Origin: Paenibacillus woosongensis | Lineage (GTDB): Bacteria; Bacillota; Bacilli; Paenibacillales; Paenibacillaceae | Assembly: GCF_009725165.1 (NCBI RefSeq) | Contig: NZ_WNZW01000003.1 | Location: forward strand, 124,001 to 188,000 | Reading direction: 5' to 3' | DNA: 64,000 bases | Shown here: one piece after another, positions 1 through 58,146 of the stretch | How the letters are laid out: every line of letters starts with the position of its first letter | How positions within the stretch are numbered: position 1 is the first letter of the stretch | Position numbers and translations under genes: made by a program | The notes under the pieces: generated by a model | Database searches by the model: none | What the model was told of the DNA's origin: nothing | Seen by the model: the letters and a program-made list of their open reading frames with translations, nothing else

Positions 1-442
1 AATCCGCGAGAAGCGGGGACTCGCCTATTCCGTATATTCTTACCACAGCTCACATGCGGATAGCGGTCTTTTTACCGTATATGCGGGGACAGCGCCTAAG
101 CAAACCAAGGACGTTCTGGAGCTGACCAAGGAAATACTGCATGATGTCTCGCTCAAAGGGCTTACCGAGAGCGAACTAAGCAAAGGGAAAGAGCAGCTGA
201 AAGGGAGCCTTATCCTAAGCTTGGAGAGTACGAGCAGCCGGATGAACCGGCTTGGCAAGAACGAGCTGATGCTCGGACGCCATTACACGCTGGATGAAAT
301 TATATCTCGAATCGAAGCAGTAACGATGGAGGATATCGGTGATGTGCTGCAAGGGATGTTTAAACAGCCCTATGCGCTGGCTATGGTCGGTTCCTCTGAT
401 CGCGTCTTATCAGGAATAAGGAGAGATGAACTTGTCGTATGA
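1..442 (+). CDS. M16 family zinc protease, C-terminal part
   Basis: The window opens inside this gene. The frame is open from base 2, leaving about 146 C-terminal residues. They read as the substrate-binding second half of an M16 (insulinase/processing-peptidase) protein: [14 protein letters not shown] near the start is the conserved R-x-x-x-G-L-A-Y segment, followed by helices and a MVGSS strand near the end. The zinc motif would lie upstream, outside the window. Position before dpaA matches ymxG/mlpA in B. subtilis. Its stop overlaps the dut start, so the two are probably co-translated. Fairly sure of the family. The exact orthologue is inferred from synteny. Confidence 0.85.
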
Positions 443-881
443 AGTAGAAATTAAACGTTTAGCAGGAACTGAAGATCTTGAGCTGCCGCAGAAGATGTCT
501 TTGCAGGCTTCAGGATTCGATCTCTATGCCGCAATTACCGATGAAGTTGTGCTGCATCCAGGACAGCGCACCTTGATTCCGACCGGCTTTGCCCTCGCCA
601 TGCCGGCTGGCCTGGAAGCCCAAATCCGACCGCGCAGCGGACTAGCGTTCAAGCATGGCATTACCTGCCTCAATAGTCCTGGCACAATTGATGCCGACTA
701 CCGGGGAGAGGTACAAGTGCTGTTGATCAACCACGGGGACGAGCCCTTTACCTTCCGGAGGGGAGAGCGCATTGCGCAAATGGTATTCCAAATCGTTCCT
801 GAGGTCAACCTCGTCCAGGTTGAGGAATTGTCTGAAACTGTGCGCGGCGCCGGAGGATTCGGTCATACCGGAAGAAATTGA
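426..881 (+). CDS. dut: dUTP diphosphatase
   Basis: Hydrolyses dUTP to dUMP and pyrophosphate, keeping uracil out of DNA and supplying dTMP synthesis. At 151 residues it has the usual length of the trimeric family. All five dUTPase motifs are visible in order: SGFDLYA (about 29-35), [22 protein letters not shown] (substrate Asp and Tyr), [10 protein letters not shown], and the C-terminal P-loop-like GAGGFGHTG, where H replaces the more common S. The start at 426 has AAGGAGA just upstream and overlaps the end of the M16 protease gene. A terminator follows, so this probably ends the upstream operon. Confidence 0.95.
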
Positions 882-929
882 AATTACGCTAAACTAGCGT
901 ACCCACAATGCTAGAACATGAAGGCTGCT

Positions 930-967
930 GGCCTGTACTTATCGGTACAGGATCGGAGGCCTTTTTT
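930..967 (+). terminator. Intrinsic terminator after dut
   Basis: CCTGTAC and GTACAGG form a perfect 7-bp stem with a 6-base loop (932-951). GGCC at 930-933 can also pair with GGCC at 958-961, directly followed by a run of six T. It separates dut from the dipicolinate operon. Confidence 0.7.
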
Positions 968-997
968 GTTTGCGGCAAAAGCCTATGAACCGGGTAT

Positions 998-1026
998 CAC
1001 CACTTAATAGGCGTCGGCATAAGATG
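998..1026 (+). promoter_or_regulatory. Possible sigma-K promoter of dpaAB
   Basis: CAC at 998-1000 and CATA at 1018-1021 followed by AGATG are 17 bases apart, close to the mother-cell sigma-K pattern (AC, 16-17 bases, CATAnnnTA). dpaAB (spoVF) is sigma-K controlled in B. subtilis. A TATAAT-like hexamer at 1030 has no good partner. The match is partial. Confidence 0.35.
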
Positions 1027-1063
1027 TTCTATAATGTGCTAGCTTGGAAGGAGGACGTCCACG

Positions 1064-1963
1064 ATGCTTACCGGACTAACAATTGTATTTATTGGCGGAG
1101 ATGCTCGGCAGATTCAAATTATTAACAAGTGTACGGAGCTTGACGCTACAGTGAAGGTAGTCGGCTTCGAACAATGGGAGCCTCCTCTATCCGGAGTATC
1201 GCATGAGAAGCTGTCTCCCGGCTTGTTGATGAGGGCCGACGCTATCGTGTTTCCAGTGATCGGCTGCAATGACCAAGGCGTTGTCGACTCGCCGTTTGCG
1301 AACGACGAGGTGGTGCTGACTAAAGATATGTTCGAGGAAATCCGGGAAGAGACAGTGGTTTATACAGGCATGGCCAAAAGTTTATTGAAACGCATGGCCG
1401 CCGAATTCAGTTTCAAGTTAATCGAGCTGCTTGAGCGGGATGATGTGGCGATATTCAACTCGATACCAACGGCTGAAGGAGCCATCATGATGGCGATTCA
1501 GCATACCGACATTACGATTCACGGTTCGACCTGTATCGTGCTGGGCATAGGAAGGACCGGGTTTACCTTGGCGCAAACCTTGCAGGGCCTAGGAGCAACC
1601 GTGAAGGTAGGGGTTCGCCGGGAAGATCAGGCAGCCAGAGCTGTCCAAATGGGATGGAAGCCTTTCGTAGCAACGGATTTGAAGGCTTATACGGGGGAAA
1701 TCGACTTGATTTTTAACACGATTCCGACTATGATAGTCACAGCACAAATCATCTCGAAATTGCCCCGGAACGTCGTCATTATTGATCTTGCTTCGGCTCC
1801 AGGAGGAACTGATTTTCGCTTTGCGGAGAAGCGGGGAATCAAGGCGCTTCTGGCCCCTGGTTTGCCTGGAATTGTCGCTCCTAAGACAGCAGGGATCATA
1901 ATGGCGAATACGATCTGTCAGTCGATATCGGAAGAGTTCCATTTACGGGGGGATGAAATGTGA
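1064..1963 (+). CDS. dpaA: Dipicolinate synthase subunit A
   Basis: The dehydrogenase-like subunit of dipicolinate synthase makes dipicolinic acid from the dapA product dihydrodipicolinate in the sporulating mother cell. The protein has 299 residues, normal for the family. An N-terminal FIGGDARQ segment is followed near residues 160-185 by a Rossmann nucleotide site, GIGRTGFTLAQTL, and later by APGLPGIVAPKTAG, a conserved SpoVFA stretch. AAGGAGG lies 9 bases before the ATG. The stop overlaps the dpaB start, so the subunits are translationally coupled. Presence of dpaAB says the organism forms heat-resistant spores. Confidence 0.95.
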   Translation: MLTGLTIVFIGGDARQIQIINKCTELDATVKVVGFEQWEPPLSGVSHEKLSPGLLMRADAIVFPVIGCNDQGVVDSPFANDEVVLTKDMFEEIREETVVYTGMAKSLLKRMAAEFSFKLIELLERDDVAIFNSIPTAEGAIMMAIQHTDITIHGSTCIVLGIGRTGFTLAQTLQGLGATVKVGVRREDQAARAVQMGWKPFVATDLKAYTGEIDLIFNTIPTMIVTAQIISKLPRNVVIIDLASAPGGTDFRFAEKRGIKALLAPGLPGIVAPKTAGIIMANTICQSISEEFHLRGDEM

Positions 1964-49935: not shown

Positions 49936-52011
49936 TCAAGATTCGTTAGGCGAAGCCGCCGCACCTGCATGCTGTGGAAGCGGCTCTGATGCCGCTTCTT
50001 CCGCTGCGCCAAGCTGCAGGCGATACATTTGATAGTATCTGCCGCCTAGGGCGAGCAGTTCTTCATGGGTACCCCGTTCCACGATTTCGCCTCGATGCAG
50101 CACGAGAATTTGGTCGGCGCTGCGGATCGTCGAGAGGCGGTGGGCGATGATGAATGTCGTACGGCCGCGCTTAAGCACTTCTAACGCGGACTGAATCAGC
50201 GCCTCCGTCTCGGTATCGATATTGGCCGTCGCTTCATCCAGAATCAGGATTGCCGGATCGAAGGCCAGCGCTCTGGCAAAGGAAATCAGCTGCCGTTCTC
50301 CGGCGGATAGTGTGCTGCCTTTCTCCACCACGGGCTCATCGATGCCTTTAGGCAGATGCTGCAGAATATGCGCAGCGCCTACATCGGCCAAAGCCTTTTC
50401 AACGCTAGCCCGGCTGATCCGCTCGTCACCGAGGCTTACATTCGAAGCGATCGTACCCGTAAATAAGTACGGGTCCTGCAGGACGATTCCCATATGCTGG
50501 CGAATCCACTGCTTCGGCAGTTCGGTGACATTCTGGCCATCAATCGTAATCGTTCCCTTTTGAGGATCATAGAAGCGGAATAGCAGATTGATGATCGAGC
50601 TTTTGCCTGAGCCGGTATGCCCTACCAAGGCCACGGTCTGTCCTTGCTTTACCTCAAAGTTAATATTTTTGAGCACATAATCCTTCTTGTAGGCGAAGGA
50701 GACGTTTTTGAATTTGACGTCCCCCTTATAGCGCGGCATTCCGCCGTCAGTGACAGGCTCGCCGGGCTCATCCATCAGCTTGAATACGCGGCCGGCGGAC
50801 ACCATGGATGAGTCCAGCGCCGCAAGCTGATTGACCATGCCGGTAATCGGCTGAAACAATCGGCCGAGCACATCCACAAAGGCGTACAGCACGCCGAGGG
50901 AGATAATTCCTGCTCCAGTCAGCTGAGCCGAGCCGAAATACCATAGGACGATCGCAAATGACAAGCTGCGGATGACGTTGACGAGATTATGCGAGGTCAG
51001 GGCGTTCAGGTTGAGCATCTTGTTTTGGTGTTTCATGTAATCGTTGTTCAGGTCTTCGAATTCCTCTTTGGTTTGTTCTTCGCGCCGGAATATCCGAATG
51101 ATCGACATGCCTTGAATCGATTCGTTGATTATTGCGTTGATCTCGCTCAGCCGGGAACGGATGATGGTATTGTATTTGGTCGCAAATTTTCGGTAGAGCA
51201 CAACCCAAATCCAAATAACCGGCACGACGAAAAGGCAGATGAGTCCCAGCCTGACATCGAGCAGGAATAGGGCTACGTACACCCCCAGCATGTTTATCAC
51301 GCCCGAGAAGAAATTGGAGAGAACGGCGATAAACAAATCTTTGACCGCCTCGGTATCGTTCGTTACCCGGGAAACGACCTTGCCAGCCGGGAGGTTATCA
51401 AAGTAGTGGACCGGCAGGCGCTGAATATGACTATACACATCAACGCGCAGCCTCTGAATGACCTTGTTTGCGGAAGATTGCAGCCAGTAGGTTTTGCCGA
51501 ACTCCATGACGATGCCGACCGCCAGAAAGGCAAAATACCAGCCGACCAATGTGAGAATGCCGGGAATTTCCGGTTGATAGAACGCGAATAATTCCGTTTT
51601 TGTCAGCTTGACTGCCGGATACTCGGATTTGCTCCCGTTATAATCAATTGTCAGCATGCCATCCTGAAAACTGCGGTCCCCGCTTGGATTTGCCACCGGC
51701 TCGTCAATGAAGACGAAGATCTTGCCCGTCTGCAAAATGCGAACCTCCTGGCCTTTGGCTTCGTCAGCCGCAAAGCGGTCTCCGCGCTTGAAGTAACGTT
51801 CATCATAGGAAACAGTCTCCTTGCCGGGACCGGAAGTTTCGTAAAAAGGCCGCTCGATCGCCAGCATGTGATCATCTATCATGGAGCGGGCGATGAAGGG
51901 GCCGGCCAGATCGGCGGCAACGCCGATCGCCAGCATGACCAGGGCAAGGATAAATGTATTTTTTGCCGTCAAGGCGTATTTAAACAATGCTTTACCTGTA
52001 TGCGTATGCAT
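49936..52011 (-). CDS. Heterodimeric ABC exporter, BmrD (YheH)-like half
   Basis: 691 residues: an exporter membrane domain with six helices and an insertion of about 100 residues after the first helix, as in YheH/BmrD, then an ATPase domain with Walker A GHTGSGKSS, signature TLSAGERQL, Walker B ILILDEATANID with the catalytic Glu intact, and a switch His in IAHRLS. Pairs with the upstream BmrC-like half to export drugs. Starts 5 bases after the bmrC-like stop, with GGAGGTG 11 bases before the ATG. No terminator is seen before the window's repeat cluster. Confidence 0.88.
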   Translation of the reverse strand: MHTHTGKALFKYALTAKNTFILALVMLAIGVAADLAGPFIARSMIDDHMLAIERPFYETSGPGKETVSYDERYFKRGDRFAADEAKGQEVRILQTGKIFVFIDEPVANPSGDRSFQDGMLTIDYNGSKSEYPAVKLTKTELFAFYQPEIPGILTLVGWYFAFLAVGIVMEFGKTYWLQSSANKVIQRLRVDVYSHIQRLPVHYFDNLPAGKVVSRVTNDTEAVKDLFIAVLSNFFSGVINMLGVYVALFLLDVRLGLICLFVVPVIWIWVVLYRKFATKYNTIIRSRLSEINAIINESIQGMSIIRIFRREEQTKEEFEDLNNDYMKHQNKMLNLNALTSHNLVNVIRSLSFAIVLWYFGSAQLTGAGIISLGVLYAFVDVLGRLFQPITGMVNQLAALDSSMVSAGRVFKLMDEPGEPVTDGGMPRYKGDVKFKNVSFAYKKDYVLKNINFEVKQGQTVALVGHTGSGKSSIINLLFRFYDPQKGTITIDGQNVTELPKQWIRQHMGIVLQDPYLFTGTIASNVSLGDERISRASVEKALADVGAAHILQHLPKGIDEPVVEKGSTLSAGERQLISFARALAFDPAILILDEATANIDTETEALIQSALEVLKRGRTTFIIAHRLSTIRSADQILVLHRGEIVERGTHEELLALGGRYYQMYRLQLGAAEEAASEPLPQHAGAAASPNES

Positions 52012-52016
52012 GAGGA

Positions 52017-53771
52017 TTAGGACACCTCCCCGTCAAGGTTGGATTCAACCTGTTGACGCTCATATTGTTCGCGGTACCAGCCATTCGCCTGAAGCAGCTC
52101 CTGGTGCGTACCCTGCTCGATAATGCGTCCCTTCTCCAGCACGACGATCCAATCGGCATGCTCCACCGCGGATAGCCGGTGAGTGGAGATGAGCGTGGTT
52201 TTTCCGGAACGCTTGCTTCGGATATTGTCGACGATTCGGGCTTCCGTACGGGCGTCAACGGCCGAAAGCGCATCATCGAGAATTAGGATTTCCGGATTGG
52301 CGATAAATGCTCTTGCCAGGGATACCCGCTGCTTCTGTCCTCCAGAGAGGGCCACGCCTTTCTCGCCAACCAGCGTATCCAGCCCGTCGGACAAGGTTCC
52401 CAGATCCTGATCGAACGCAGCGGTACGTATTGCCTCCATAATTTTGTCATCCGAAGCGTCCTTGAGGCCAAATTGAATGTTCTGCCTAACGCTCCTTGAG
52501 AACAGAATCTGTTCCTGCGGCACGTAACCGACCCAGCCATGGAGCTGGGAAAGTGCGATATTTTGAAGCGGAATGCCGGAAATCGTCAGTTCGCCGGTTC
52601 CTAGCGGATATTCGTGCAGCAGCTGCTTCAGCAGTGTAGATTTGCCGCTGCCGGTACGCCCGACGACGCCAAGCGTCTCGCCGCGGCGAATCTTCAGATG
52701 AATGCTGTCGAGGTTAATCTGTGCCGAAGTCGGGTATTGGAAAGTAACATTTTTGAACTCAATGCTGTCGGGATGATCAACATGGACCGGATCGGCCGCG
52801 TCCTCGACGTCGGGCTTGACGTTCAGCGTCTCGTTCACCCGGTCGAGGGAAGCGCCGCCGCGCTGCATGATATTGATCAATTCGCCGATGGCGAACATTG
52901 GCCAGATCATCATCCCGAGATACATATTAAATGACACGAGGTCGCCTAAGGTCAGCTCGTTATGAAACACGAGGTATATGCCGTAGGTCAGTCCAATGGC
53001 GTAACTGAGCCCGACGCAGAGCCGTATCGTCGGCTCGAAATAGGCATCGACCCGTGCAACGGCCAGATTTTTACGGTACACGTCGTCGGTAACGTCCTGG
53101 AACCGCTTCTCGTCAAGCCGCTCCTGAACATAGGCGCGTATGACGCGCACGCCGGCGACCGATTCCAGCACCTGATCGTTCATATCGCCAAACGCATCCT
53201 GAGCCAGCGTATAGCGCTGATGGATGATGCGGCCGTAAATCATCATAGCCAGGGCAATGAAAGGGAGCGGAATAACCGCAGCCAGCGTCAGCTTCCAGCT
53301 GATGAGCGTGCCCATGGCGATAAAGATGACGGACAAATAAGCTGTAGAGTCGGTTAAGGTCAGCATGCCGAAGCCGGCCGTCTGGGCAACGGATCTCAAA
53401 TCGTTCGTTGCCCTTGCCATGAGGTCCCCGGTACGGCTCCGTTCAAAGAACGGCGGCGTCATCCTCAGCAAATGGTTCATAAACCGCGTGCGGAGCAGCC
53501 TCTCAATCAGGTTGGATCCGCCAAACAGCTTATGCATCCATATGTAGGTCATGTAATATATGACGATGAGTACTCCGGCAATCATCAGAATATATTGCGC
53601 TAGCAAATTCCAGCTAATAGATCCATTAACGATGTCGTCGATCGCTGCGCCCAGCAGTCTCGGCGGAAGGAGTTCCATAATCCCGGTTATAATCAACAGG
53701 ATCAATCCGATCGTGTATCGCCTTTTTTCCCGCCGGAAGAACCAGCCTAGCTTTTGAAGAACGGAAAACAT
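52017..53771 (-). CDS. Heterodimeric ABC exporter, BmrC (YheI)-like half
   Basis: 584 residues. Starts MFSVLQKLGWFFRREKRRYT like YheI; membrane domain with QLFGG-type segment HKLFGGSNLIERLLRTRFM; ATPase with Walker A GRTGSGKST, signature ALSGGQKQR and Walker B ILILDDALSAVD. The catalytic Glu after Walker B is Asp, the degenerate-site mark of BmrC. The functional ATP site is therefore formed with the partner's Walker B. AGGAGG lies before the ATG. An apparent attenuator precedes it (promoter 54172, leader ORF 54087, terminator 53889). Confidence 0.9.
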   Translation of the reverse strand: MFSVLQKLGWFFRREKRRYTIGLILLIITGIMELLPPRLLGAAIDDIVNGSISWNLLAQYILMIAGVLIVIYYMTYIWMHKLFGGSNLIERLLRTRFMNHLLRMTPPFFERSRTGDLMARATNDLRSVAQTAGFGMLTLTDSTAYLSVIFIAMGTLISWKLTLAAVIPLPFIALAMMIYGRIIHQRYTLAQDAFGDMNDQVLESVAGVRVIRAYVQERLDEKRFQDVTDDVYRKNLAVARVDAYFEPTIRLCVGLSYAIGLTYGIYLVFHNELTLGDLVSFNMYLGMMIWPMFAIGELINIMQRGGASLDRVNETLNVKPDVEDAADPVHVDHPDSIEFKNVTFQYPTSAQINLDSIHLKIRRGETLGVVGRTGSGKSTLLKQLLHEYPLGTGELTISGIPLQNIALSQLHGWVGYVPQEQILFSRSVRQNIQFGLKDASDDKIMEAIRTAAFDQDLGTLSDGLDTLVGEKGVALSGGQKQRVSLARAFIANPEILILDDALSAVDARTEARIVDNIRSKRSGKTTLISTHRLSAVEHADWIVVLEKGRIIEQGTHQELLQANGWYREQYERQQVESNLDGEVS

Positions 53772-53854
53772 GAAGATTTCCTCCTATCCCTTTTACAATG
53801 CAATATTTAAATTAATTCTTGAGGCAGCCCTACAGGCGACTCTATTGGAAACCG

Positions 53855-53889
53855 CAAAAAAGGCATATCGTCCGTAAACGATATGCCTT
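53855..53889 (-). terminator. Terminator in the leader of the BmrCD-like operon
   Basis: On the minus strand AAGGCATATCG pairs perfectly with CGATATGCCTT (11 bp) over an 8-base loop and continues into TTTTT. It lies 84 bases before the exporter start and 79 bases after the leader ORF stop, so it would block the exporter unless antitermination occurs. Upstream hairpins GTATAG/CTATAC (about 53963-53946) could take part in switching. Confidence 0.85.
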
Positions 53890-53967
53890 GAAGACCAATA
53901 ACATATAACGCGTACGCTGCTATCACAAAGTGAAGCAACCGCAGCTGTATAGCATTGCCTATACCCG

Positions 53968-54087
53968 CTAGAAGACGACGGGGACAATTCGCGAATATAA
54001 TCCAGTCCAGCCTGCAGGGATTGCTCCGGTATTCAGTTGTACCATGTGTCCGTTATGAAGTGCAGGAAAATGATTAACAATTAACAC
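53968..54087 (-). CDS. Leader peptide of the BmrCD-like exporter operon
   Basis: 39 codons from GTG 54087 (AAAGGG 8 bases upstream); an in-frame GTG at 54096 is also possible. The peptide contains NHFPALHNGHMVQLN and IPAGWTGLYSRIVPVVF and then stops. It lies between a sigma-A promoter and an intrinsic terminator in front of bmrC, the arrangement of B. subtilis bmrB-bmrC-bmrD, where translation of the leader controls antibiotic-induced read-through. The hydrophobic Ile-Val-Pro-Val-Val end resembles drug-stalling leader peptides in style. Real translation is inferred, not shown. Confidence 0.65.
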   Translation of the reverse strand: MLIVNHFPALHNGHMVQLNTGAIPAGWTGLYSRIVPVVF

Positions 54088-54142
54088 CGTGCTCACCCTT
54101 TCATAGTTTGGTAATTAATGCAAATGAGATCTCGTATGCTTG

Positions 54143-54172
54143 AGTTTAACACCGCTTTCTTGCCGCTGTCAA
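54143..54172 (-). promoter_or_regulatory. Sigma-A promoter of the BmrCD-like operon leader
   Basis: Minus strand TTGACA (54172-54167), 18 bases, TAAACT (54148-54143). It is about 55 bases before the leader ORF start. Confidence 0.6.
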
Positions 54173-54180
54173 TTTTTATT

Positions 54181-54210
54181 TTGGCAATTCCATCAGGATT
54201 GGTCTAAAAT
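54181..54210 (+). promoter_or_regulatory. Sigma-A promoter of yneR
   Basis: TTGGCA (54181-54186), 18 bases, TAAAAT (54205-54210), 27 bases before the yneR start. Its -35 is only 8 bases from the -35 of the divergent exporter promoter. Confidence 0.6.
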
Positions 54211-54236
54211 AAGGAGAAGATAGGAGGGGGATCGAT

Positions 54237-54533
54237 ATGATCAACGTTACAAAAGAAGCGGCCGGCTGGTTCAAAAACGAACTTGGCGTACAAGAGGGTC
54301 AGGCGATCCGCTTTTTTGCGAGATATAGTGCCGGAGGAACCATTCACCCGGGATTTGCGCTGGGCATCGGCATTGAAACCCCGGTCTCGCCGGGTGCTGT
54401 CTCTGAGGTGGAAGGGATTACGTTCTACATGGAAGACAAGGATTTGTGGTATTTGAAGGGATACAATTTGAACGTAACATATGACCAGAAGCATCATGAT
54501 ATCGAGTATGAGTACGAAACGGCCGAGGCATAA
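54237..54533 (+). CDS. yneR: HesB-like protein YneR
   Basis: 98 residues of the HesB/IscA fold: MINVTKEAAGWFKNELGVQ and FFARYSAGGTIHPGFALG. There is no cysteine, so it cannot be an IscA-type Fe-S carrier; this is the YneR branch of unknown function. Acidic C-terminus. TAGGAGGGGG is 6 bases before the ATG. Monocistronic as far as can be seen. Confidence 0.87.
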   Translation: MINVTKEAAGWFKNELGVQEGQAIRFFARYSAGGTIHPGFALGIGIETPVSPGAVSEVEGITFYMEDKDLWYLKGYNLNVTYDQKHHDIEYEYETAEA

Positions 54534-54697: not shown

Positions 54698-55216
54698 TTA
54701 CGGCTTATTATTCGTGAAAATGCTGTCTTCCATGGCGAATTCGAAATCCTGGATATCGAATACCTGAACGGGAACTTCCGCTTCGATGATGCGGCGAATC
54801 AGCTCCAGCTGATCCGTCAGGACTGGAGCGCCTTCACGCTGTGCAGTCAGCACGATTTCGGTCTCGATCGGATCGAGAAATTCCCCGTATTGCTCGTTAT
54901 CGAGCGCGTTGACCACTGTCCATGAGACGTTCTCGCCAAGCAGGATGGAAGGGCTCTTGGCCCAGGGAATACTCAAGGCACGTTCAAGCTTTTTGCGGTT
55001 GAGCGGTTCTTCCAAATAAGCTATTAACTCATTGATTTTATTCTTAACATGCAAGTCATCGGCTGGATCATGCATGAGAGGTTCGGGACTACTCTGAAAT
55101 TCGTACAGCTCCATGACGGTGGTGTAAGGTACAATATATTCTACTGGCGAGCCGGGCGCGAGTAACTCCCCATAAATGGCCACCATCACGGCTTCAATGA
55201 CAAATCGACGTGACAT
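54698..55216 (-). CDS. Conserved protein of unknown function
   Basis: 172 residues from ATG 55216 (AGGAGG 7 bases upstream). Begins MSRRFVIEAVMVAIYGELL and contains EYIVPYTTVMELYEF and FLDPIETEIVLTAQREGAP. No signal peptide, membrane segment or catalytic motif I can name. I recall similar Paenibacillus proteins carrying the label ADP-heptose synthase, which the sequence does not support. Divergent from the kinase-like gene. The family appears limited to Paenibacillaceae, but I could not check. Confidence 0.75.
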   Translation of the reverse strand: MSRRFVIEAVMVAIYGELLAPGSPVEYIVPYTTVMELYEFQSSPEPLMHDPADDLHVKNKINELIAYLEEPLNRKKLERALSIPWAKSPSILLGENVSWTVVNALDNEQYGEFLDPIETEIVLTAQREGAPVLTDQLELIRRIIEAEVPVQVFDIQDFEFAMEDSIFTNNKP

Positions 55217-55362
55217 GGTTATCCTCCTACAAACGGTTGCTGCTCTTGTCGACTGCCGCAAGCGATCGCCCATGGCAGGGACATATTACTAGGGAGTATA
55301 TCACAACATGGATACAATTACAGCTTGATCGGCAAAAAATGAATGACGAATGGAGGAAGGTT

Positions 55363-56346
55363 ATGCCTGAATCAGAGGAACTGCAGCGGAATGAAGGCTT
55401 ATCTGAAAGCGCCCTTGCCTGGATTAGGGGGCAATGCGGAGGAAGCTGGAACATTCGTGCTATTCGCCCCCTGCTAGGGGGGATCTCGTCTGCCGTCTAC
55501 GAGCTGGAATTGGAGAAGGACGGAGAGAGCGCTAAATGGGTGCTGCGCCAATATACGAACCGGGCCTGGCTTGAAGAAGAACCGGATCTCGTCGCGCATG
55601 AGTCGGCGGCGCTTCAAGCCGCATCAGAGTACGGGATTGCAGCGCCAAATGGGCTCGCCTCCGATTCTGATGGAAGGGGCTGCGGCATGCCTTCCGTCCT
55701 CATGTCGCACTTGCCGGGCGAGGTCGTACTTATGCCGGCAGACAGGGCAGGCTGGCTGCGCGGACTCGCCCAGGCGCTGGCCCATTTGCATCTTCAGGGA
55801 ACGAGGACGTTTCCCTGGACTTATTTTTCATATATCGATCCGGCCCGCTTCAGCATTCCCGAATGGACGAGCAAACCTGACGTTTGGCGGGAAATCGCCC
55901 GAATCATTCAAGGACCGGAGCCAGCGTATACGCAACGGTTCATTCATCGCGATTATCATCCCGGCAACGTGCTGTGGGAGCATGGGCGGGTAACCGGCAT
56001 CGTCGATTGGGTCAACGCCTGCTTGGGTCCGTCAGGAATCGACGTGGGGCATTGCCGGGTAAATTTGGCGCAGCTTCACGGGCCTGAGGCGGCAGACCAG
56101 TTCCTTGCAGCCTACCTAGAATACATGCGGGACGGGCAGGCAGCGGGATACGATCCATACTGGGATATGGTGACCTTGGCGTGTTACGTTTCAGATGGCC
56201 TGGAGGTTTACCGCGGTTGGATTGATCTTGGCATCACGCACCTGGACGAGGATTTGCTGGCCGAACGACTGGACGAATACGCGGAAGGTCTGCTGCAGAG
56301 ACATTCGGCCAGCTTCACGGCTCGTGAATTAAGTAATATGGAATGA
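55363..56346 (+). CDS. Aminoglycoside/homoserine phosphotransferase-family kinase
   Basis: 327 residues with a small-molecule kinase fold. IRPLLGGISSAVYELEL (about 30-46) is the nucleotide loop; HRDYHPGNVLWEHGRV (catalytic Asp and Asn) and IVDWVNACLGPSGIDVGH (metal Asp) lie near 205-240. Substrate could be an antibiotic, choline, homoserine or other alcohol; the motifs do not decide. ATG 55363 has GGAGG 7 bases upstream; the longer upstream frame overlaps the divergent gene's control region. Followed 51 bases later by an ABC exporter. Confidence 0.85.
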   Translation: MPESEELQRNEGLSESALAWIRGQCGGSWNIRAIRPLLGGISSAVYELELEKDGESAKWVLRQYTNRAWLEEEPDLVAHESAALQAASEYGIAAPNGLASDSDGRGCGMPSVLMSHLPGEVVLMPADRAGWLRGLAQALAHLHLQGTRTFPWTYFSYIDPARFSIPEWTSKPDVWREIARIIQGPEPAYTQRFIHRDYHPGNVLWEHGRVTGIVDWVNACLGPSGIDVGHCRVNLAQLHGPEAADQFLAAYLEYMRDGQAAGYDPYWDMVTLACYVSDGLEVYRGWIDLGITHLDEDLLAERLDEYAEGLLQRHSASFTARELSNME

Positions 56347-56397
56347 CGGATCTCAAAATTCGTTTAGCATAACAGCAAAGAGGGATGTGCGCATCAG

Positions 56398-58146
56398 TTG
56401 AAACATTGGAAAGCTTATTTTACTTTTGTTAAACCGTATACGAAATGGATTCTGCTCACATTATTCATCGGCGTGCTGAAGTTCGGCATTCCGTCGATGC
56501 TGCCGCTGGTGCAGAAGTATGTCGTTGACGATATTTTGCTCAATAAATCGATGGAGCTTCAGGAGCAGGTCTCCCAGTTGATGGTCGTACTTGGAGCAAC
56601 GCTGTTCCTCTTTGTCATCGTGCGCGGTCCGGTGGAGTATGCCCGGCAGTATTTCGCGCAAATGATCACGGCAAAAATTCTCTTCGATCTCCGCAATAGG
56701 CTGTACAGCCATTTGCAAAAACTCTCGCTCCGTTATTATCAGAACACGAAGGTGGGCGAGATCATCTCCCGGTTCATCAACGACGCGGAGCAAACCAAAA
56801 ATATTGTTGAAGTCGGCATGATGAATGTGTGGCTGGACGCCTTCACGCTCGTCTTCGTCCTAGGGTTCATGTTCTATTTGGATCCGGTGCTGACCCTTGT
56901 ATCTATCGCGATTTTTCCACTGTACGCGATCGCGGTCAAGGTGCTGTACAAGCAGCTGAAAAAATTGACCAAAGACCGCTCTGCAGCTCTCGCCGGCATC
57001 CAGGCGTATTTGCATGAGCGGATCCAAGGGATATCGGTCATTCGCAGTTTTGCTCTGGAACGGCATGATCAGGCCAAGCTGGAAGGCGTCAACGGGAATT
57101 ATTTGAAAAAAGCGCTGGCCCACAGCCGCTGGAATGCCTGGACCTTCGCGATCATCAACACGATGACGGACATTGCTCCGCTGCTGGTCATCGGTTATGG
57201 AGGCTATCTGGTCATTCAGCAAAATTTGACGCTAGGTACATTTATCGCATTTTTCGGTTATCTTGATCGTCTTTATTCGCCATTGAAACGGCTGATTAAC
57301 TCCTCGACTGTGCTGACCCAGGCTTCCGCATCCTGGGAACGGGTGCTGGAATTGCTCGAGGAGCCGTATGATATGGTTGATCAGCCGGATGCTCGTCCTC
57401 TCAAGGGAGGGAATCATGGCATAGCGTTCCGCAACGTCTGGTTCAAATATCATGAAAAGGACCCTTGGGTGCTTAGGGATATATCCCTCCGGATTCATCC
57501 GGGAGAGACGGTGGCGTTCGTTGGGATGAGCGGGGGAGGAAAATCGTCTCTTGTCGGTTTGATTCCAAGATTTTACGACATCCAAAAGGGAAGTTTGCTG
57601 GTAGGCGGCCGGGATGTGAAGGAGTGGACGATGGAGAGCCTGCGCAGCTCGATCGGCATGGTGCTGCAGGATAATTTTCTGTTTAGCGGCACCGTTCGCG
57701 AGAACATATTGTTTGGTAAGCCGGGCAGCAGTGAAGAGGAGGTTTACGAGGCGGCCAGGGCGGCGAATGCGCATGAATTTATTTTGGATTTGCCGAATGG
57801 CTACGACACGGAAGTCGGTGAGCGTGGCGTGAAGCTGTCCGGCGGGCAGAAGCAGCGTATTGCTATCGCGCGGGTGTTCTTGAAGGATCCGCCGATCTTA
57901 ATTCTGGATGAAGCCACCTCGGCCCTGGATTTGGAATCAGAGCATCTCATCCAGCAGTCGCTTCAACAGCTCTCCAGAAGCCGGACGACCTTAATCGTTG
58001 CCCATCGCCTGTCCACGATCACTCATGCGGATCAAATTATCGTCATGAAGAACGGCAGTATCGCCGAACGGGGAACGCACGAAGAGCTGATGGACAAGGA
58101 TGGGGTTTATACCCAGCTCTACAGTATTCAGAATTTGAATCCCTAG
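56398..58146 (+). CDS. ABC exporter, homodimer type (multidrug/lipid)
   Basis: 582 residues: six-helix membrane domain (about 15-310), with ERIQGISVIRSFALE coupling region, and an ATPase domain with Walker A GMSGGGKSS, signature KLSGGQKQRIAIARVFL, Walker B ILILDEATSALD (Glu intact) and switch His VAHRLS. Because all sites are canonical it can work as a homodimer, unlike the BmrCD-like pair nearby. TTG start with GAGGGATG about 12 bases upstream, somewhat far. Substrate unknown. Ends in a bidirectional terminator. Confidence 0.9.
   Translation: MKHWKAYFTFVKPYTKWILLTLFIGVLKFGIPSMLPLVQKYVVDDILLNKSMELQEQVSQLMVVLGATLFLFVIVRGPVEYARQYFAQMITAKILFDLRNRLYSHLQKLSLRYYQNTKVGEIISRFINDAEQTKNIVEVGMMNVWLDAFTLVFVLGFMFYLDPVLTLVSIAIFPLYAIAVKVLYKQLKKLTKDRSAALAGIQAYLHERIQGISVIRSFALERHDQAKLEGVNGNYLKKALAHSRWNAWTFAIINTMTDIAPLLVIGYGGYLVIQQNLTLGTFIAFFGYLDRLYSPLKRLINSSTVLTQASASWERVLELLEEPYDMVDQPDARPLKGGNHGIAFRNVWFKYHEKDPWVLRDISLRIHPGETVAFVGMSGGGKSSLVGLIPRFYDIQKGSLLVGGRDVKEWTMESLRSSIGMVLQDNFLFSGTVRENILFGKPGSSEEEVYEAARAANAHEFILDLPNGYDTEVGERGVKLSGGQKQRIAIARVFLKDPPILILDEATSALDLESEHLIQQSLQQLSRSRTTLIVAHRLSTITHADQIIVMKNGSIAERGTHEELMDKDGVYTQLYSIQNLNP

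Follow-up and report, generated by a model that had tools for sequence, protein, structure and literature searches.

How the expression of a drug exporter operon is adjusted to the presence of a drug is the question raised by the DNA ahead of the bmrC- and bmrD-like genes of Paenibacillus woosongensis, and in particular whether the short leader open reading frame (ORF) found there acts through the peptide it encodes or through the position of the ribosome that translates it. In the window (the whole stretch of DNA analysed, 64,000 nucleotides) both exporter genes are located on the minus strand: a bmrC orthologue of 584 aa (52017..53771) and a bmrD orthologue of 691 aa (49936..52011). Their earlier designation as bmrC- and bmrD-like was borne out by comparison with solved structures, in which B. 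subtilis YheI/BmrC (809 bits, next best 441) and YheH/BmrD (859 bits, next best 511) were the best matches. In the B. subtilis study, blocking the translation of the bmrB leader lowers expression and abolishes the lincomycin induction of bmrCD (PMC4191407). For Paenibacillus, the comparisons reported here suggest that the bmrCD leader is probably a ribosome-mediated transcription attenuator, the signal being the position of the ribosome on the ORF and not the identity of the peptide, because the promoter, the frame between start codon and ORF core and the terminator are conserved, bmrC and bmrD orthologues lie downstream and a chain of four RNA pairings covaries. Divergent from the leader lies an ORF of 98 aa (54237-54533, plus strand), which by eye is found beside the leader in close relatives too and shows a sub-threshold match to Fe-S_biosyn (E 0.089); further along the plus strand (55210-58146) come a phosphotransferase-family protein (PF01636) and, after it, another MsbA-like ABC exporter.

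All the parts of the leader listed in the preliminary description (promoter, AAAGGG, 39-codon ORF, 79-nt spacer, hairpin and terminator) were found again in place, on the minus strand. The promoter, TTGACA-18-TAAACT (54172-54143), is visible in the letters and ranked within the top two of a simple promoter scan (score 10/12), a scan that returned promoter-like sites at about the chance rate (11 compared to 8.7 in shuffled sequence, sd 3.4). The leader ribosome binding site (RBS), AAAGGG (54101-54096), is located 8 nt 5' of a GTG and is conserved in an alignment of 11 loci. From this GTG (54087) an ORF of 39 codons is predicted (53968..54087), ending in a TAG stop at 53970-53968; another GTG lies in frame at 54096 but is the less probable start, because by eye it is out of frame or absent in some relatives. 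The ORF end is separated by the 79-nt spacer from an intrinsic terminator, AAGGCATATCGTTTACGGACGATATGCCTTTTTTG (53855..53889), with a stem and T run and a folding energy of -17.7 to -17.8 kcal/mol. This terminator was absent from the list of a simple terminator scan of the window, because its stem extends into the T run. The GTATAG/CTATAC hairpin in the spacer (53947..53964) is present as described, but its conservation is confined to close relatives: the pattern occurs in 3/39 loci, and the hairpin was ruled out as a functional part.

Orthologues of bmrC (threshold E<=1e-200) were identified in 383/394 genomes of the family and in 39/40 genomes of the same genus. The upstream DNA of 99 of the 383 loci was used (39 from the same genus and 60 others), and a second paralogue (L138) was excluded from all counts. 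The layout of the leader ahead of bmrC recurs in 39 of the 40 same-genus genomes, whose loci have in common the promoter, the RBS and start, a core within the ORF (AATACCGGAGCAACCC and variants) and the terminator. In the alignment of 11 sequences TTGACA is invariant (11/11), while the RBS/start stretch and the 5' arm of the terminator are near-invariant. RNA folding supported the terminator in 38/39 same-genus loci, the 39th (L068) carrying an equivalent hairpin with a broken T run, as judged by eye. An in-frame leader ORF led by a Shine-Dalgarno (SD) sequence is also present in 38/39 loci, and the same number keep a start-to-core distance of 51-66 nt that is a multiple of three; the choice of start favoured the frame of the core (and was made by hand for L051), although the chosen starts nevertheless align by sequence. 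In the one exception, L047, 70 nt separate the two, and the ORF runs through the core in a different frame. The terminator is thus conserved in the genus; relatives of the leader peptide were detected at E<=0.05 in 11 of the 40 same-genus genomes, and a comparison of the leader with predicted proteins (217 candidates) gave none at E<=0.1. A scan of named genomes with a leader pattern matched 20 stretches, of which six were confirmed, all in Paenibacillus (P. ihumii, P. bouchesdurhonensis, P. mellifer, P. rubinfantis and two P. timonensis records).

Five segments of the leader RNA can be arranged in a chain of alternative pairings that leads from the start of the ORF to the terminator. Segment 0 (54083..54099) comprises the RBS and start-codon strand, and would pair with segment 1, the core AATACCGGAGCAATCCCT inside the ORF (54016..54033), through AGGGTGAGCACGGTGTT (helix 0:1, -18.2 kcal/mol in the window). 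Segment 1 has an alternative partner, via 54027-54014, in segment 2 of the spacer (GCGGTTGCTTCAC, 53930..53942), the strands being GGAGCAATCCCTGC and GCTGCGGTTGCTTC (helix 1:2, -15.6 kcal/mol). Segment 2 with its flanks may in turn pair with GTGATAGCAGC and beyond (helix 2:3, -17.8 kcal/mol) in segment 3 (GTGATAGCAGCGTACGC, 53900..53926), which overlaps the antiterminator strand CGTACGCGTTATATGTT (53916-53900), the partner of GGCATATCGTTTACG in the 5' arm and loop of the terminator (segment 4; helix 3:4, -12.0 kcal/mol). Adjacent helices compete, because neighbouring pairings share letters.

The chain was examined for covariation by comparing cognate segments with segments swapped between loci (1000 permutations). 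Among the 39 loci, the cognate pairing was reached by 0/1000 permutations for each of 0:1, 1:2 and 2:3 (the windows of 2:3 sharing an overlap of 2 nt) and by 1/1000 for 3:4; in a set of 24 non-redundant loci the corresponding counts were 0, 0, 0 and 13 of 1000, which makes 3:4 statistically the weakest link. The unlinked control pairs 0x2, 1x3, 0x4 and 0x3 were reached by 201, 127, 582 and 780 of 1000 permutations in the 39 loci, and 0x2, 1x3 and 0x4 by 172, 187 and 390 in the non-redundant set; a further control, 1x4, was reached by 9/1000 in the 39 loci and by 137/1000 in the non-redundant set. Compared with shuffled spacers, helix 1:2 had a mean z of -2.0 per locus, with values below -1.5 in 22/39 loci and -1.2 in the window. 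With helix 0:1 held in a fixed register, 94.5% of the pairs were canonical, compared to at most 54.9% in slid registers and 92.6% with permuted partners, the last value being high because most letters are invariant; cells in which both letters had changed numbered 5 versus 0.4 after permutation, and 5 was reached by 0/1000 permutations. The covarying helices 0:1, 1:2, 2:3 and 3:4 predict mutually exclusive antiterminator and anti-antiterminator structures. Helix 0:1 by itself would sequester the RBS and start of the leader, and could therefore also be read as autoregulation that merely tunes the translation of the ORF, with a plain terminator that allows constitutive low read-through into bmrCD and is blind to drugs. 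We consider this quite improbable, since covariation is also seen for 1:2, 2:3 and 3:4, up to the arm of the terminator, which is more than autoregulation would need, and since bmrCD of B. subtilis is drug-induced (PMC4191407); the poor separation of states in the equilibrium folding described below is a point on its side.

If the leader is an attenuator of the kind proposed, ribosomes would, in the absence of drug, initiate and traverse the core, so that segment 1 would be covered or refolded on segment 0; segment 2 would then pair with segment 3, the terminator would form and bmrCD would be off. A drug that holds ribosomes at the first codons would leave segment 0 covered and segment 1, which in the in-frame relatives lies 51-66 nt further on, free. 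The free segment 1 would pair with segment 2, the released segment 3 would take the 5' arm of the terminator, and RNA polymerase would continue into bmrCD. The predicted hierarchy is therefore one in which 0:1 removes segment 1, 1:2 frees segment 3, 2:3 blocks 3:4, and 3:4 blocks the terminator, the off state. Equilibrium folding of the 39 loci with a ribosome mask backed this model weakly. The antiterminator value fell from about 0.40 with the ribosome at codons 0-14 to 0.30 at codons 18-24, and was 0.39 with the ribosome absent, which is indistinct from an early ribosome. In the window, the values began at 0.79-0.85 (codons 0-3) and dropped to 0.38-0.49 (codons 16-20); contrary to the prediction of the model, they were high again further on, with 0.74-0.81 (codons 25-27) and 0.81 (stop). 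In one locus (L042) the value was 0.00 throughout. Folding with and without a ribosome on the leader, which had been suggested as a check, thus agreed in direction, while the states were poorly separated and the late codons of the window ran against the model. The kinetics of folding may matter for the switch.

The preliminary description had gone further and proposed that selection has shaped the peptide, and its YSRIVPVVF end in particular, for drug arrest. In such a mechanism the nascent NTGAxPAG core, or the YSRIVPVVF end, would, with the drug bound in the tunnel, stall the ribosome and so set the fold of the RNA. There are observations in its favour: TV, P, QLNTG and PAG are invariant across the 11 aligned leaders, and ermC and cat-86, cited in PMC4191407, are precedents for other resistance genes. 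Rates of substitution in the window clade (6 loci, pooled pairwise, the pairs being non-independent) point the other way. Non-synonymous differences per site were 0.335 in the N part of the leader and 0.159 in the C part, compared to 0.040 in bmrC, with dN/dS of 1.32, 1.19 and 0.05, respectively. Within the core of 11 codons (33 nt), 144 pooled sites yielded no synonymous difference, and the non-synonymous differences numbered 13; a core without synonymous change is what a constraint on the RNA predicts. Synonymous differences per site were 0.515 in bmrC versus 0.271 (N part) and 0.135 (C part) in the leader, and RNA constraint may therefore inflate the dN/dS of the leader. In a second clade (4 loci) the leader dN/dS was 0.52, 0.36 and 0.43, based on few changes, for which reason weak selection on the peptide may operate there. 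The core of wider relatives reads NTEAALQV, NTVVTPAG, NTGSNPAM or NIEAIPHA, and in L047 it is read in a different frame altogether. A YSRIVPVVF-like end is present in just 6/39 loci and is conserved in close relatives only, so it was ruled out as a functional part, and the length from core to stop varies from 10 to 52 codons among the 38 ORFs listed. The reading as a drug-arrest peptide is therefore not supported by the sequences of the window clade, and we regard it as unlikely for the leader as a whole. What stood of the earlier proposal on comparison is a leader ORF with a choice between antiterminator and terminator ahead of bmrC and bmrD; the selected arrest peptide did not.

The pairing between RBS and core was also sought beyond the genus. 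In Bacillus (34 of 35 loci, L217 being left out) the RBS:core duplex had a mean of -21.9 kcal/mol compared to -16.6 for permuted partners (0/1000); among these clusters the permutation test covered 0:1. Taken singly, RBS:core pairings reached p<=0.05 in 16/34, 17/26 and 11/15 loci of three other groups, counts that are somewhat inflated, as each locus entered the comparison with shuffles with whichever of several candidate starts paired best. A pattern search for an SD-led ORF found none in 4/26 loci of other genera and in 3/15 loci of other families. Several loci of other genera, among them L118 and L131, have tandem terminator-like hairpins before bmrC; in these, by eye and by hairpin prediction, the arm of the first terminator complements the leader core directly and a second terminator is next. 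At another locus of the family (L115, from another genus), an ORF (2-1492, plus strand) lies directly 5' of bmrC; its product resembles a two-domain ABC-F ribosome-associated ATPase. A leader ORF was looked for between this gene and bmrC of L115 and none was found; L116 resembles this arrangement by eye.

These pairings in other genera also bear on the idea that a small molecule or an RNA-binding protein switches the leader RNA directly, the ORF being incidental. The 5' UTR (about 54137-54102, minus strand) contains ATACGAGATC and TAATTACCA, which are highly conserved in 11 loci and unexplained by the proposed pairings; this is a point in favour of such switching. Rfam covariance models, however, gave no match at gathering over the whole window, nor at E<=5 over 53770-54240; the start-to-core frame is kept in nearly all of the same-genus loci, and RBS:core pairing recurs in other genera with other letters. 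Direct switching is, on this evidence, very improbable.

For B. subtilis the comparison suggests a different leader frame. One genome encodes a protein with 100% identity over 204 residues of B. subtilis BmrC, and in this B. subtilis-like genome the 53-codon bmrB frame stops 119 bp short of bmrC, just as published. At this locus AAGGAGGGTTTGCTATGCCA pairs at -25.8 kcal/mol with TTGGCGCGGCAAACCTT, which lies 38 nt past an ATG. An ATG ORF of 23-32 codons behind GGAGGGTTTGCT, in another frame than the annotated one, is present in 11/11 B. subtilis-like loci (L186, L169, L187-L192, L194-L196), whereas the GTG of the annotated 53-codon frame is kept in 7/11 and the frame is open into the terminator in 6/11. 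By eye, the annotated bmrB GTG, which in B. subtilis lies 16 nt 3' of the ATG, is preceded by a weaker AAGGA. For the same 11 loci core:spacer (1:2) and spacer:terminator (3:4) duplexes were listed, without a permutation test. The sequences make the 23-codon ATG ORF a candidate for the corrected B. subtilis leader peptide, and the annotated bmrB frame looks doubtful. In PMC4191407, a fusion to the annotated bmrB frame fluoresced when carried on a plasmid but stayed dark when on the chromosome, and in the bmrB start mutant alternative starts and RBSs were lost as well; fusion and start mutant are therefore compatible with either frame. Among the papers listed by searches of an open literature collection, which included those on bmrB and vmlR as well as reviews, none described a Paenibacillus bmrCD leader or an alternative B. 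subtilis bmrB frame.

Compared with systems described before, the Paenibacillus leader fits the bmrB/vmlR kind, with the logic of vmlR and bmrB in outline. It shares with B. subtilis bmrB (PMC4191407) the bmrCD operon, a short leader ORF, a terminator before bmrC and a predicted antiterminator and anti-antiterminator, although the letters differ throughout. The published bmrB ORF is 53 codons long and encloses the terminator, whereas the Paenibacillus ORF ends well before it, and the role of the anti-antiterminator, left open for bmrB in that study, is here proposed to involve the RBS and start codon of the leader as partner. In vmlR, ribosome arrest at initiation frees the antiterminator, and the RBS and start of its uORF lie within the anti-antiterminator, as predicted here for helix 0:1 (PMC9226507). 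The vmlR uORF has about 3 codons, compared to 29-71 codons among the relatives listed here; vmlR has a NusG TTNTTT pause motif, found here in the last 60 nt ahead of the terminator in 4/39 loci and not in the window; and the controlled gene encodes an ABC-F factor instead of an exporter. In the arrest-peptide leaders of ermC and cat-86, too, a leader ORF precedes the resistance gene and senses ribosome-targeting drugs; these leaders control translation of the gene, and the window clade lacks the signature of selection on peptide sequence.

Taken further, the bmrCD leaders across Bacilli could be one ancient, nearly letter-free attenuator, in which a stretch about 35-70 nt past the ORF start complements its own RBS, the drug is sensed as occupancy of the start codon with no arrest peptide, and the pairings have been rewritten in concert between genera; we see the case for and against this as evenly balanced. 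If it is true, the genus of the window would have several switches between its sensing helix, at the upstream end, and the terminator (0:1, 1:2, 2:3, 3:4, 4:4'), in some other genera the core would pair straight with the arm of the first terminator, and the B. subtilis leader peptide would have 23 residues in a frame differing from that of the annotated BmrB. For the Paenibacillus leader, the attenuation model gives a testable trigger, ribosomes held on the start codon, and assigns the anti-antiterminator a possible role, which the B. subtilis study had left open, besides suggesting an alternative leader frame in that species. It also advises caution, as conserved leader peptides need not be arrest peptides where RNA pairing accounts for them. 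Because bmrC is present in nearly all genomes of the family, the way it is controlled is of importance for intrinsic drug tolerance.
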